The notes under the pieces were generated by a model, which was not told the origin of the DNA, ran no database searches, and saw only the letters and a list, made by a program, of their open reading frames with translations. Positions 48,601-57,600 of a stretch of 64,000 nt of DNA are shown piece after piece. This DNA is from Beroe forskalii (taxonomy: Eukaryota > Ctenophora > Nuda > Beroida > Beroidae): NCBI GenBank assembly GCA_011033025.1, contig WFMF01000643.1, positions 17,599-81,598 of the forward strand, written 5' to 3'. Every line of letters starts with the position of its first letter. The first letter of the stretch is position 1. The position numbers and the translations under genes were made by a program.

Positions 48601-51600
48601 CATGTACAAAGGAGATGATAGGTTTTACATTGTACACAGTGATGTAATCAGCAGCATAAGGTCATGTTGAAAGCTGTCTTGACATATTTTATAGTCTATA
48701 AAATGCTTGGTTGAGGGGCTCCACAAGTATTTATCATTGTGAGTCATGTGGAGACTTCTGCCTAAGGAAATTTTACATCCATTTTTTAAAGAACGAAATT
48801 TAAAGCTTAATCGGTTCAAAAGATATAGCTTAATATATGACGTGTGGAGCTACGTGTGGAGCAAGGCCCTCAACCAGCTCCAGATGGACATTTTTGATTG
48901 AAATTTTAGTAGCTGAAGGGTTACATCATTTCACAACTTTTTATTAAGGTTTTCAACATTTATTCCTCAACCAATGTGGAGAAATATCGAAAATCAATAT
49001 TAAAATTCCCTCAACCAGGGGTTTTATGTCCAATTTGGAGCCAGAAATTCCGATTTTAGCTGAAGTCATCTTCTGGCCATATGTTGGAGGCCATAAAAGT
49101 TCTCTAGTGACCTCAACCAGTGTGGAGAACCATTTCAAATACTCTCACTTCTTCAATTTTAAAATGTGGAAAATTGGAAATTGTGGGTAACCATCAAATT
49201 TGTATCAATTATGTTGCCACACGTTGGTTATACAGGCCAATTTAGTATTCAGTGGCTCACTAAGGGTTTACTGATAGGATTGTTAGCTAATTGGATAATC
49301 TAGCCCTCAACCATGTGGAGCTGTACCCATTTCTATATTCAAGATCAGTCTCCACATCTGGTTGAACATTCAAATCAATGTAATGTTTATTCAATGTTAT
49401 CTGATATCTATTTATGCGCAAAAAAAGATGCAATCTTGAATAATACCTCAACCATGTGGAGACACTTATCCATTTTGTATTAGCAACTATTATCAAATTT
49501 TCAGCTAATTCATTTGTCAACTTTAGCTTAATTCTTGCTTTGGTTGAGGAAACCAGTAATTTAACTGATAATGTTCATGCTTGGATAGTGGAGGGTAGAG
49601 TTCAACCAACAAAATAATTAACCATTGGTGAACGAGACTCTCAACCATGTGGAGCTGTAGATAAATATGCCAGAAAGTTTTACCTCCACACTTGGTTGAG
49701 TAATAAATTTTGATTTTCTTTAGAAAATATTGATATTCGAAGTTTTAGCAACATTAAGAACCTATAGTTATAACTATAAAACTCAACCATGTGGAGCCAA
49801 CATCGAACTAAGGGCTGTCTAAAAATTGGAATTTCATAGGATTGCACTGCGAATTATCACTTCACTTCTAATTGTATTGGCTGAGCATGAATTCAGATTT
49901 TTTAAATATAAACCAGTGAAAATATCAGCTATCAGGGTATATTTACTAGTTAATCAAGTACAGCATATATAATCCTCAACCATGTGGAGCAGCAGCTGAA
50001 AATCCAACAAAATACTGTCTCCACAGTTGTCTGAACTATTTGAAGTTAATCTTCATAGTGTAAGGTACTTGTCACTAACTATAAATCAACCCAGAGTCCT
50101 CAGAAATGCTCACTCAACCATGTGGAGCATTTCGTGGATGAATAATCCATGGCTATGTTTACTACAAGTACATGGCCCACCAGATAGAATATAAATTCAA
50201 TAACTCTAGATAGTTCCAACATATTGAACTATTGATTTCAAACTCAAATAAAGGCAGTGATCACTTTTATATCGTCTTTAGCAATTTAGCATTGTCTCAC
50301 TCAACCATGTGGAGCCAAATCAACAATATATTTCTTAGATAACACTATATTGGTTAATTTCTGAGTTGATGCTTTTATCAATAGTAAAAGTTTTACTATC
50401 TACATCCCAAGTTCCAGCAACGTCTGGATAGATAACAGTAGCATAAAACACCTCTTCTCTGATATTTTTTCTCTTGAACTTCAGAGTATCCCTTTCACGT
50501 TCCAAGTACACTCCCACAAAGAACTCATCATGAGTTTCAGAAACTTCAAAAAGCCAGTAACTAGTAGTTGCTTTTCTTGAGGCTTTCACAGCAACAATAC
50601 AACCCTCAGCCACCAAATCCTTCCTGGCCTCGTTCTGTACATCTATGTCATCATTGTTTTCCTCCTCTACTGAGGCATGGTCTTGAAACTTATTCATTGT
50701 CATTTTCTGATCTTGACCAACAAATGGTGTCATGTGACCATTACTGGTTGTTATAATGAAGTATGGTGCTCCATACTCACAGTTATTATAGGCACAATCT
50801 TTACATTCAGAGCAAGAGCAAATCAGGGGGCTAACTATGAGCTGATCTTTCTTGACATGCATGAAATGGAGAGTTGAGCTTCCAGGAAGTTTATTAAGCT
50901 TAAGAATCTCATCTGGGTGAGCTCCACGCTCAAAATCTTTCTCTACGAGGTGAAAGTGGCGACTGACCACACCTGGATAAGTTGAGAAGTGACGCTTTGC
51001 TATTGCTATTGCATCTTCTGAAGTGTAAAAAGTCTCCTGCTGGTTAACTGATCTGTTTCTCAAAACTTCTTTAACTGCCCCACCAGCACTGTCAACTTCA
51101 TTTTTACCATGACCAGCAATTCCATAAATTCTGATGATTTCAACATCGAATTCATGTACCCACTTCAATAGATAGTTGAAGGCTTCAACACATTTATATT
51201 GCTGAGAACAATTGTCACTCATGATAACCAGTGTTTTGACAGCTGAACTGAATCTTGTAACTATGTCTGGCATTGCCTGGTCTATGAAAGCAGAGTCATG
51301 TGCTTTGCTATCACTCAGATGATGATGGTATTCTTTTGTGAAATCTGCAGATTCAGAATTGTATTCCCAAACTATTGTGTTGTGCAATGTTATGGTTATC
51401 TTACCATAGTACATACTCTGAGCCTCCTTCTCAAAGACTTGTTTAGGATTTTCACTGAAATCCATTACACAGTAGACGGTGTCTTGCTTTGAGAGCCAGA
51501 ATTCTTGATAATGAAAGCCAAACCACTTCAAATGATTTCTATGAAGAAGGTATTTGGTAAGAGTTTCTTCAGCAAATTCAATATAACTGAAAATGTCCTC

Positions 51601-54600: not shown

Positions 54601-57600
54601 TGGTTGAGTAGAGACAACTGAGAGCTGGTCTAATGTGAAGTATCAATGAATGATATTTTATGCTTGATTTAAAACCTTTAAAAGACGCACCTCTTCTTAA
54701 AAAGAGATGATAGGTTTGTACATCTTCATTTGTGAATAAAAGGCTCCACATTGGTTGAGGATACCTATAAGGAGTCACATAACTTACTTTCTATCTATAT
54801 TCTTCCTGTCAAAGCGATCAACGACCATTTCTAGTTAAAAAAGACAACTTAAATTGAACTTGAAGTACTTTTTGTTAACATTCTATTTATTAGAATGCAG
54901 CTCCACAATGGTTGAGTACTGTTACACATTTCAATCATTTAAAATTGTAATTATATATGTTTGTTTTAGTTTTTAAAAAAGGTTTGACATCTCTATCCAA
55001 TTAACTTTTGATTCTGTGGACGTTTAAAAAGTGCCTTAAATTCAGAAAGATGCTCCACATCAGTTGAGTAACCAAAGTTACTCAACCGGGGTGAAGTATG
55101 TTCTCAAGGCATTTCCAGAGATGAATCAATTTCAAAAATTGTGTTCAACCTAATGCTGCTCTCTGGAATCCCGTGAACAAAAACCTGGTTAATTCTAGTC
55201 ACTGGCTCCACAATGGTTGAGATAGAGACCTAAAATTGGTATCATAAGACATTTCAATCACTGTTTAATAACGTCATCAAATATCATCTCAAAATTTTGT
55301 GTATAAGTACTAATAGAACGTAATTAACATTTTGAGGTGAAAAATGGGTAAAAATCGGTCCTCAAATGTGTCAAGACAGCTTTCAACATGACCATAAATA
55401 GAAATGACGCAATACTCATTACTCGCGACACGACACGACTAAACATGACACATTATCAGGATTCAGAGCTATTGAGCATGGAATAGAGTAAGTGCTGACG
55501 TAATATGTGACATCTCCCTAAGCGGTTACATGTCGAAGTGGTGACTGTATACCGCAACTTACATGGTCGAGGCGACCCGCAACAGCCGAGACTGTAAGTT
55601 GGATAATGGACGAGGCGTGCCGAGTTCATTATAGAAGGTATACGGTCTCAGCTGAGGTCATGGAACCGGATTATACCCCGACCAGAAATAGTTGGGACGT
55701 ACTTTCCTCTGACCAAACAACTGCATTTCTTCCCACTTGGGTCTGACGACCCTCGTCCGGATAACGGATTCAACGAAATGAATTTTCATTTTAAGCTTTT
55801 TTGCACTGTTATTCAGTGGAGACCATATAACCAAACTTATACGGTCGCTAAAACAAGCTTGGGAGGGGTATAATAAGCGGTAACAATTCCTTTACCGTCA
55901 CTGGCTTGATAACTTGGATCCTTCGATTCCTGTCATTGGCCGCTTAGCTGTTGGAAAGTTGGAATAGTAGTAAAACGGTAAAACCTTCAAAATAGAAATT
56001 GTAGCACCGATCACATTGCTCATTGCAGTGCTTATATACCTTATTGGCCTTTATTTAACCGGCCCTTAAGGACAAAAACGACTTTCAAATTTTTGTCCAA
56101 AGGGCCGGTTAAAAAAAGGCCGGTTAAAGTGGGGCCGGTCAAATTAAAGGCCAATTGATTTAGGTCAAATGAAACTTTTATGACTTGGCTTAAATTCACT
56201 TGAGCGTCATTACATAACACGTTAATGACCTAAAACATAATATTAGACCGGGATTTGTGTCTTTTGATGCAATTTATTGAATATAAAGGGCTTTTAGTGG
56301 TCATTTCAGAGCATAAAATCCTTGGTCTGGTGACCACCAGAAAAATTTTTGTCCAAGGGGCCGGTTAAAACGGTTCAAAATTGATCCAATTTTTGTCCAT
56401 AGGGCCGGTTAAAAAAAGGCCGGTTAAAAAAAGGCCGGCCAAATAAAGGCCAATAAGGTAGATAGAAGACATTTACCTGCATGCAATCCGATATGTACAT
56501 CATGGGAGACGGGTATCTGGCGCCAGGAAACAGTCGTGTCGCCCTGTCTCAATAGCGTCGTAGAATATCTGTATCGCGTAATCTGAAAGATGACGTACAT
56601 TCTGACCGGCAACGAGACTGTAATCCACATCATTGAATCTTTTCCATTCATTCCAGTATGAAACTTGCATAATTCTATGAGCATGTTATGAGCATGATAT
56701 GAGCATAATATTAAATTATTCATTTAATTAATTTCTTTATTGAAATTTTTTGCATACTAACTATGAAGACATGGACTGATCAGAGTAAAGCACTTCTGTA
56801 CTGTTGTTTGTAGATAAAAATATACGATGATGAAAGTGGATCATGGAATCGGAAATCTTTTTCCTCATCGGATTGCTATTCGATTAAATACTTTCGCCAA
56901 TAAGCTGGGATTACTTCTGAGCATGGGAAACACGAGCGCTATGTCAAGTGCTTCAGTTTCAATTATTAACAATTAGCAATATCGTATTTCACATCAGCTA
57001 ACCAATGCCCGTGGGAATACAGCCCCTGCATTGGTACGCAGCAGACCTCCCTTGATTAAAGTGGGGCAACGCACCACATGGGACCAACCTCAAAACCCTC
57101 AAATTAAGCCCCTATTGACATTAATTTGATATCCTCCATCATTGAAATAAGGAGATTTGAGGATGGCGTGTACCTGTGGTGCCGCCTCCTGTTGAGGATG
57201 GTGTGTACCTGTGGTGCCGCCTCCTGTTGAGGATGGTGTGTACCTGTGGTGCCGCCTCCTGTTGAGGATGGCGTGTACCTGTGGTGCCGCCTCCTGGCGT
57301 GTACCTGTGGTGCCGCCTCCTGTTGAGGATGGCGTGTACCTGTGGTGCCGCCTCCTGTTGAGGATGGCGTGTACCTGTGGTGCCGCCTCCTGTTGAGGAT
57401 GGCGTGTACCTGTGGTGACACCTGCTGTTGAGGATGGTGTGTACCAGTGGTGCCGCCTCCTGTTGAGGATGGCGTGTACCTGTGGTGCCGCCTCCTGTTG
57501 AGGATGGCGTGTACCTGTGGTGCCGCCTCCTGTTGAGGATGGCGTGTACCTGTGGTGCCGCCTCCTGTTGAGGATGGCGTGTACCTGTGGTGCCGCCTCC

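Follow-up and report, generated by a model that had tools for sequence, protein, structure and literature searches.

A 64,000-nt stretch of Beroe forskalii contig WFMF01000643.1 (hereafter the window) contains a 6,734 bp element (48660-55393) with all the structural parts of an animal cut-and-paste DNA transposon. Its principal features are collected in Table 1. The tips of the element read GGTC...GACC, and its terminal inverted repeats (TIRs) match perfectly in inverted orientation for 25 bp (48660-48684 vs 55369-55393) and extend to 30 bp with a single mismatch, at position 26; this is precisely what the first-pass annotation had described, and the ATAA it reported on both sides is likewise present, as a perfect 4-bp target site duplication (TSD). 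When the first 17 TIR bases are searched for with up to 3 mismatches, only the two ends match anywhere in the window (mean in shuffled sequence, 0.17). The broader claim, that the element is an intact DNA transposon whose subterminal arrays are inverted and which includes a zinc-finger module, is supported by TIR, TSD, reading frames and motif counts together. No second copy of the element occurs within the 64-kb window, a point in favor of its being domesticated or an immobile relic. Against that reading, which we regard as improbable, stand a perfect TSD, a TIR that is exact over 25 bp and frames that are still open. Judging from these same three sequence features, the insertion may be recent.

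Table 1. Features of the element and its flanks (window coordinates; residues numbered in the 842-codon ORF)
Feature	Position	Strand	Basis or remark
Left TSD, ATAA	48656..48659	+	sequence comparison of flanks
Left TIR	48660..48689	+	exact over 25 bp; one mismatch over 30 bp
Six half-sites near left end, irregular order	48710..48874	.	GTTGAG, CTCCAC, GTGGAG x3, CTCAAC
Left subterminal array	48966..50314	+	9 CTCAACC-N2-3-GTGGAG copies on +
Two reversed copies inside left array	49350-49366, 49684-49700	-	
Transposase frame, probable last exon	50335..52878	-	ORF and splice prediction
Candidate third residue D591	51091-51093	-	alternative to E589
Candidate third residue E589	51097-51099	-	alternative to D591
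Candidate catalytic D550	51214-51216	-	
Candidate catalytic D468	51460-51462	-	
Minisatellite, 15 bp x 16, inside transposase frame	52479..52723	-	codes PDPGT-type pentapeptide repeat
Possible small middle exon	53118..53167	-	prediction only; acceptor CACAG|, donor GAG|GTGAGA
Four C2H2 fingers, probable first exon with ATG	53330..53972	-	zf-C2H2 match, splice prediction
Right subterminal array	54281..55221	-	7 copies on -
One reversed copy inside right array	55081-55096	+	
Right TIR	55364..55393	-	inverted copy of left TIR
Right TSD, ATAA	55394..55397	+	sequence comparison of flanks

The subterminal motif is best written CTCAACC-N2-4-GTGGAG, with a variable core and a total length of 15-17 bp. 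It occurs 16 times exactly in the element and 0 times in the other 57.3 kb of the window; with up to 1 mismatch the counts are 19 and 1, against means of 0 (exact) and 0.01 (up to 1 mismatch) in 100 Markov shuffles of the element. Allowing up to 3 mismatches gives a weaker contrast (44 in the element vs 148 in the rest), near-palindromes being counted on both strands. Some 20 copies of a 15-bp motif pointing inward had been proposed: the number holds, with 19 near-exact copies, and so does the direction for 16 of them, whereas the length varies as given above and three copies (at 49350, 49684 and 55081) are reversed. The half-sites are enriched in their own right, GTGGAG occurring 27 times in the element and GTTGAG 26 times, where their frequencies elsewhere in the window predict 2.1 and 5.8, respectively. 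A similar word, GTTGAA, lies within the TIR (48666) and is found 14 times in the element, where its frequency elsewhere in the window predicts 4.6; 8 of the 14 fall in the coding part (51139-53809), and we conclude nothing from it.

Both arrays are regularly spaced. Among the nine + copies of the left array short spacings (138-146 bp) alternate with long ones (187-193.5 bp), and the seven - copies of the right array lie 147.5-165.5 bp apart; random placement equalled this regularity in 3 of 100,000 simulations for the left array and in 0 of 100,000 for the right. By eye, the spacings show no clear multiple of 10.5 bp that would indicate helical phasing. Although the spacing is regular, the DNA separating the motif copies is unrelated, a combination that bears on whether the arrays are simply decayed tandem duplications without a binding role. 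The left array does repeat in a 334-bp register, and its units two and three align slightly better than shuffled sequence (score reached by 7 of 300 shuffles), as such an origin would have it; yet the left units are only 29-35% identical outside the motifs, the remaining two unit pairs stand at shuffle level (42/300 and 202/300), the right array is spaced differently and its spacers lack similarity (largest z 2.4 among 15 pairs), and one motif is common to both ends of the element. We consider decayed duplication highly improbable.

Between the arrays lie two frames on the reverse strand, both of which had been noted previously and both of which are real. The uninterrupted 842-codon frame is present as ORF 50335-52863(-), with a listed TTG start and its first Met at residue 171; the C2H2 frame (53298-53972(-)) matches zf-C2H2 in Pfam with E 5.1e-17. 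They had been read as two genes, with a finger module either separate or fused. Because no Met precedes residue 171 in the transposase frame, the two are probably exons of one spliced gene, so that the fused (spliced) arrangement is favored, short of proof, and a separate gene is the less supported option. An in-frame splice model exists (1,078 residues), and its predicted middle exon is in frame with both neighboring exons. The predicted splice sites are fair; two listed two-intron joins outscore the chosen one (52 and 51 vs 50), and both cut into the fingers. The product would be a single transposase of ~1,080 residues with four N-terminal C2H2 fingers, a linker, the PDPGT repeat and a catalytic domain. 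In the competing arrangement the other frame is the transposase, and the C2H2 protein is a separate DNA-binding accessory that would coat the arrays and might also control the promoter, in the manner of TnpA of En/Spm. Both an ATG and a stop codon are present in the finger frame itself, and the right array sits upstream of that ATG, at the place expected of a promoter; against this, a transposase started at residue 171 would lose the repeat region, and the in-frame join is available. Two genes seem to us unlikely.

The fingers are arranged as two pairs, F1-F2 and F3-F4, separated by a 23-aa linker; the canonical C2H2 pattern fits 3 of the 4, finger 4 being atypical and missed by it. C2H2 fingers have a partly readable DNA code, and the element's own four-finger domain is predicted to read the array motif. 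What is new here is this predicted agreement: the targets read from the finger pairs, GTGGAA and GTTGAG, agree with 11 of the 12 bases of the motif half-sites, the code and the finger-to-half-site assignment having been picked after the motif was known. Reading the code in the wrong polarity gives 6 of 12. The 11/12 match was equalled by 11 of 20,000 random 16-mers and 6 of 20,000 16-mers from the window; controls that rearrange the protein reached it more readily, in 12 of 144 permutations of the same residues among fingers and in 4 of 24 reorderings of whole fingers. A strict code (only Arg-G and Asn/Gln-A) gives 8 of 10, a score that 4.5% of random 16-mers and 7.2% of those from the window also attain; requiring the inverted geometry lowers these shares to 1.0% and 1.4%, respectively. 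Finger 1 (Gln at -1) is the disagreement under both codes, with A predicted against G in the half-site; finger 4 (Asn at -1) also disagrees when the strict code is applied, with A predicted and T found. The exact predicted word GTGGAA is not enriched in the element (1 vs 3.3 expected). As a case of zinc-finger-bound repeat arrays, then, the element has arrays at both ends and a binding that is predicted, at 11/12 with mixed controls.

We favor, as probably correct, an explanation that joins these parts: a complete transposon encoding one spliced finger-transposase whose finger pairs read the arrays, leading to synapsis and 4-bp staggered joining. The finger domain would have a preference for CTCAACCATGTGGAG, with F1-F2 and F3-F4 acting as two modules that read GTGGAG and GTTGAG, inverted within each motif, and the long F2-F3 linker would accommodate half-sites that lie anywhere from 3 to 5 bp apart. 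By occupying the regular arrays, transposase could bring the two ends together, after which cutting at the TIR tips would be followed by joining to target DNA across a 4-bp staggered cut. How a transposase recognizes its own ends is usually solved by bench work; here the specific binding prediction is testable because the likely protein and its likely sites lie in one element and the C2H2 code is partly readable. If relatives pair different fingers with matching different arrays, the family would document co-evolution of protein and DNA as a natural series and could supply transposase parts whose specificity can be read.

The catalytic domain is proposed to be an RNase H-fold DDE/DDD domain. 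Of the DDE-like triad claimed earlier, D468 and D550 stand as candidates, and the third residue may be E589 (D81D38E, a DDE) or D591 (D81D40D, a DDD). A model of the 231-aa core has low confidence (pLDDT 52.8), and its strands and helices follow one another in the RNase H order; a 693-aa model was set aside (pLDDT 34.6). Foldseek searches with the core model list endonuclease V, terminase nucleases, PIWI and RNase H among many unrelated folds, with none at E <= 0.001 in PDB and one in BFVD (a Bacillus phage G protein, 4.9e-4), and lend weak support to an RNase H-type fold for the modeled core.

Searches with the long frame returned no Pfam transposase model above the curated cut-off, the only matches, both below it, being Adeno_E3_15_3 (E 0.022) and ApeC_platyh (E 0.057). 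A trimmed query alone gave a weak match to DUF7869 (PF25273; E 0.022; 14.8 bits vs the Pfam cut-off of 26) running from before D550 to beyond D591. Insofar as Pfam models cover Zisupton/KDZ, Academ, Novosib and Zator, the Pfam scans gave no hit to these superfamilies either. In PHROGs the matches were weak (best E 0.013) and fell on families without an assigned function; NCBIfam yielded none, PDB by sequence nothing relevant (best E 0.11), and tblastn against phages and plasmids no match. Protein-level pattern searches gave 13 matches in genome contigs and 1 in viral contigs, no relative among them. DNA patterns of the conserved motifs found 0 loci in genome contigs and 0, 0 and 2 in viral contigs; the two are chance, the pattern not lying in one open frame and the transposase tblastn reaching a best E of 0.37.

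Several superfamilies are ruled against by termini or TSD: Kolobok and piggyBac duplicate TTAA (PMC9587614), not ATAA; Ginger1/2 and IS481EU are described with TGT... termini and an integrase-type transposase (PMC2836005, PMC10045372), unlike the GGTC...GACC ends here and the lack of an integrase match in Pfam; and Tc1/mariner makes a 2-bp TA duplication (PMC10741241), versus 4-bp ATAA here and no Pfam match. An ordinary Sola element, with a Sola DDD transposase and arrays as family-specific subterminal repeats, is quite possible, if short of probable. Sola is described with a 4-bp TSD, a length of 2-9 kb, TIRs of 11-1124 bp, variable termini and a DDD transposase (PMC10741241), and in a bivalve library the Sola1 mean length is 5,445 bp (PMC10294476). 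The ATAA on both sides (one copy only), the 6.7-kb size, the short TIR and three acidic residues (D468, D550, then E589 or D591, the latter a possible DDD) fall within that description; the likeness is one of description, such loose features fit many elements, and C2H2 pairs and arrays are not mentioned in the Sola descriptions consulted. More doubtful is that these are animal DDE/D transposons of an undescribed superfamily, or of a deep clade within one, in which two C2H2 pairs fused to the transposase co-evolve with bipartite half-sites arrayed at regular intervals near either end; if true, each element's end sequence would be readable from its own finger code. The open-licence literature, in the portions covered, does not name this element or an array-bearing C2H2-pair transposase, which is weak evidence of absence because only open-licence papers were included.

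In architecture the element is of a known kind, real and structurally intact, with a testable finger/array pairing. En/Spm (CACTA) elements have inverted subterminal arrays bound by an element-encoded protein (TnpA/TnpD); the arrays here are alike, whereas the CACTA ends and 3-bp TSD of En/Spm are absent and one fused protein is probable. hAT elements make an 8-bp TSD, in contrast to 4 bp here, and C2H2 pairs take the place of BED; there is no hAT match in Pfam, and the hAT-type C/DxxH signature is absent from the core sequence, where, by eye, Lys and Ile stand three residues ahead of the two His that separate D550 from E589/D591. The likeness lies in a zinc-binding N-terminus paired with short subterminal repeats, by predicted binding here and by binding of the BED domain in Hermes, where two repeats form a quasi-palindrome (PMC10368747). 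Galileo (P superfamily) also repeats several transposase-binding sites inside its ends, suggested to confer specificity (PMC3688188); it differs in having a THAP domain and long TIRs, where the present element has short TIRs and unrelated spacers.

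The element, a structurally intact DNA transposon, ends in inverted repeats that are exact over 25 bases and carry one mismatch over 30; beyond its two ends no TIR-like copies occur in the window, and comparing the element by BLASTN with the remaining window sequence yielded a best match at only E 0.10. The first-pass annotation was accurate in nearly all details (TIR, ATAA flanks, frames, arrays), and the evidence supports its reading as a DNA transposon whose arrays are functional, array binding being predicted.

Coordinates of the element, its coding parts and neighbouring repeats in the window
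Feature	Coordinates	Strand	Remarks
Element	48660 to 55393		6,734 bp; TIR and ATAA flanks
ATAA flanks	48656-48659 and 55394-55397		both sides of element
C2H2 frame	53972 down to 53298	-	own ATG
Long transposase frame	52878 down to 50335	-	includes stop codon; follows C2H2 frame
Minisatellite	52479-52723		15-bp unit; PDPGT-type pentapeptides encoded within transposase frame
Splice model	53972-53330 + 53167-53118 + 52878-50335	-	1,078 residues
Long satellites	20665-22777, 35763-40343, 44659-45625, 57157-57854		units 53, 40, 12, 35 bp
Dispersed repeat	47770-48409		directly left of transposon; similar in pieces to 26958-27916 and 27906-28059
Palindromic stretches	2245-2906, 34828-35453		
Large duplications	31454-32707/43102-44303, 25186-25920/41813-42066, 40482-41486/42064-43080		inverted and direct
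~125-bp repeat	10886-11012, 11521-11647, 14449-14572, 14923-15049		four copies

Searching for a bipartite motif (CTCAACC, a spacer of 0-4, GTGGAG) recovered 16 exact copies in the element, or 19 when up to one mismatch was allowed; the remaining 57.3 kb of the window held 0 and 1, and 100 first-order Markov shuffles of the element gave means of 0 and 0.01. The CTCAACC side faces the nearer terminus in 16 of the 19 copies, those at 49350, 49684 and 55081 being reversed. In the right array seven copies follow one another at spacings of 147.5-165.5 bp; in the left array nine copies in + orientation are set apart alternately by short intervals (138-146 bp) and by longer ones (187-193.5 bp), and random placement equalled this regularity in 0 (right) and 3 (left) of 100,000 simulations. 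An old duplication is a less likely origin of the left array, whose three 334-bp units share 29-35% identity once motifs are excluded, and the observed alignment scores of the unit pairs were reached by 42, 202 and 7 of 300 shuffles. Among the 15 right spacer pairs the highest z was 2.4. The DNA between motif copies is dissimilar, while one 15-mer is present in 7 exact copies in the left array; identical 15-mers amid unrelated spacers are the pattern expected from selection on putative binding sites.

A candidate reader of these sites lies in the C2H2 frame, whose four fingers (F1-F4) carry recognition helices QAKNLKR, RKDALKR, RRENLER and NKASLKR. Parsed linkers of 7 (F1-F2), 23 (F2-F3) and 8 (F3-F4) residues make the domain look like two pairs; F4 has non-canonical spacing and was not caught by the pattern that detected the other three. 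Under a one-to-one code, picked like the finger assignment after the motif was seen, the predicted targets are GTGGAA (F2F1) and GTTGAG (F4F3), agreeing at 11 of 12 positions (6 of 12 in the wrong polarity) with the motif's half-sites GTGGAG and GTTGAG on opposite strands. A match this good arose in 11 of 20,000 random 16-mers and 6 of 20,000 window 16-mers outside the element (0 when inverted geometry was also demanded). Other controls count against it: 11 of 12 is equalled in 12/144 cases on permuting residues among fingers and in 4/24 on permuting whole fingers. A stricter code (Arg-G, Asn/Gln-A), as described in PMC12264921, yields 8/10 agreement, a level equalled by 4.5% of random 16-mers and by 7.2% of those from the window, falling to 1.0% and 1.4% once inverted geometry is demanded. 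The exact predicted word GTGGAA shows no enrichment, occurring once in the element where 3.3 would be expected. We regard the match as a good, cheaply testable hypothesis and no demonstration. The gap between half-sites varies from 3 to 5 bp among copies, which the flexible 23-residue linker would accommodate.

Both frames reported as 'two genes' exist, but they probably form one gene. In the long frame methionine first occurs at residue 171 of 842, and because a protein begun there would drop the entire PDPGT repeat, whose copy number may differ among copies of the element, an upstream exon likely supplies the start. The 1,078-residue splice model is open throughout and scores 50 on a simple score; two of the listed two-intron joins outscore it (52 and 51), both exiting at 53824 within the finger domain, and further joins tie with it. 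Since rival joins score higher or tie, we grade fusion of the finger and transposase frames by splicing as probable only.

No Pfam transposase model matched the long frame at its cut-off; a trimmed query matched DUF7869 at E 0.022, under the Pfam cut-off. Candidate catalytic residues are D468 (in VMDFSEN), D550 and E589 or D591, giving D81D38E or D81D40D. A 231-residue AlphaFold2 model built from the single sequence (pLDDT 52.8, pTM 0.49) has the RNase H fold order (three strands, helix, strand, helix, strand, helix), and Foldseek returned zero PDB matches for it at E <= 0.001. Residues and model fit a DDE/D transposase, with no superfamily proven. The main rival to the new superfamily suggested earlier is an ordinary Sola-type element: Sola is described as having DDD, a 4-bp TSD, TIRs of 11-1124 bp and mostly 2-9 kb length (PMC10741241), a description with which the element is compatible. 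Searches of viral, prokaryotic, phage and plasmid sequence collections turned up no relatives, unsurprisingly given what those collections contain.

The element probably works as follows: several transposase molecules per end would dock by their fingers on the arrays, pair both ends and identify them as the element's own, whereupon the DDE/D domain would cleave at GGTC...GACC and insert with a 4-bp stagger. Binding to the right array, which is situated upstream of the probable start codon, may additionally regulate the element's gene. Working precedents are Hermes, whose subterminal repeats are bound by BED domains (PMC10368747), and Galileo, with several sites in its ends bound by THAP domains (PMC3688188); the fingers here are C2H2 and their binding predicted.

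Of ten neighbouring frames, eight matched a Pfam family at E <= 0.001 and two none; two of the eight (F-box-like, beta-propeller) fell under the curated cut-off, and the others include Rpb2 domains, Apg6 (Beclin-type), Frag1/DRAM, a protein kinase piece and an epimerase, whose open frame is shared by the 35-bp-unit satellite. On the strength of these genes the host is taken to be an animal. The left-flank dispersed repeat is, piece by piece, 70-88% alike to the two stretches listed for it, and the element therefore adjoins an older repeat. The two palindromic stretches resemble a foldback-type mobile element family: they are mutually 78% alike, and each matches its own reverse complement, one almost perfectly (97%) and the other in decayed form (73%). 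Large duplications of ~93-98% identity, accompanied by degenerate CCTAAC/TAGGGT arrays, suggest a single large rearranged element or duplicated block in the 25-44 kb interval. The ~125-bp repeat, its copies 95-98% alike amid gene-bearing frames, is possibly a short mobile element.
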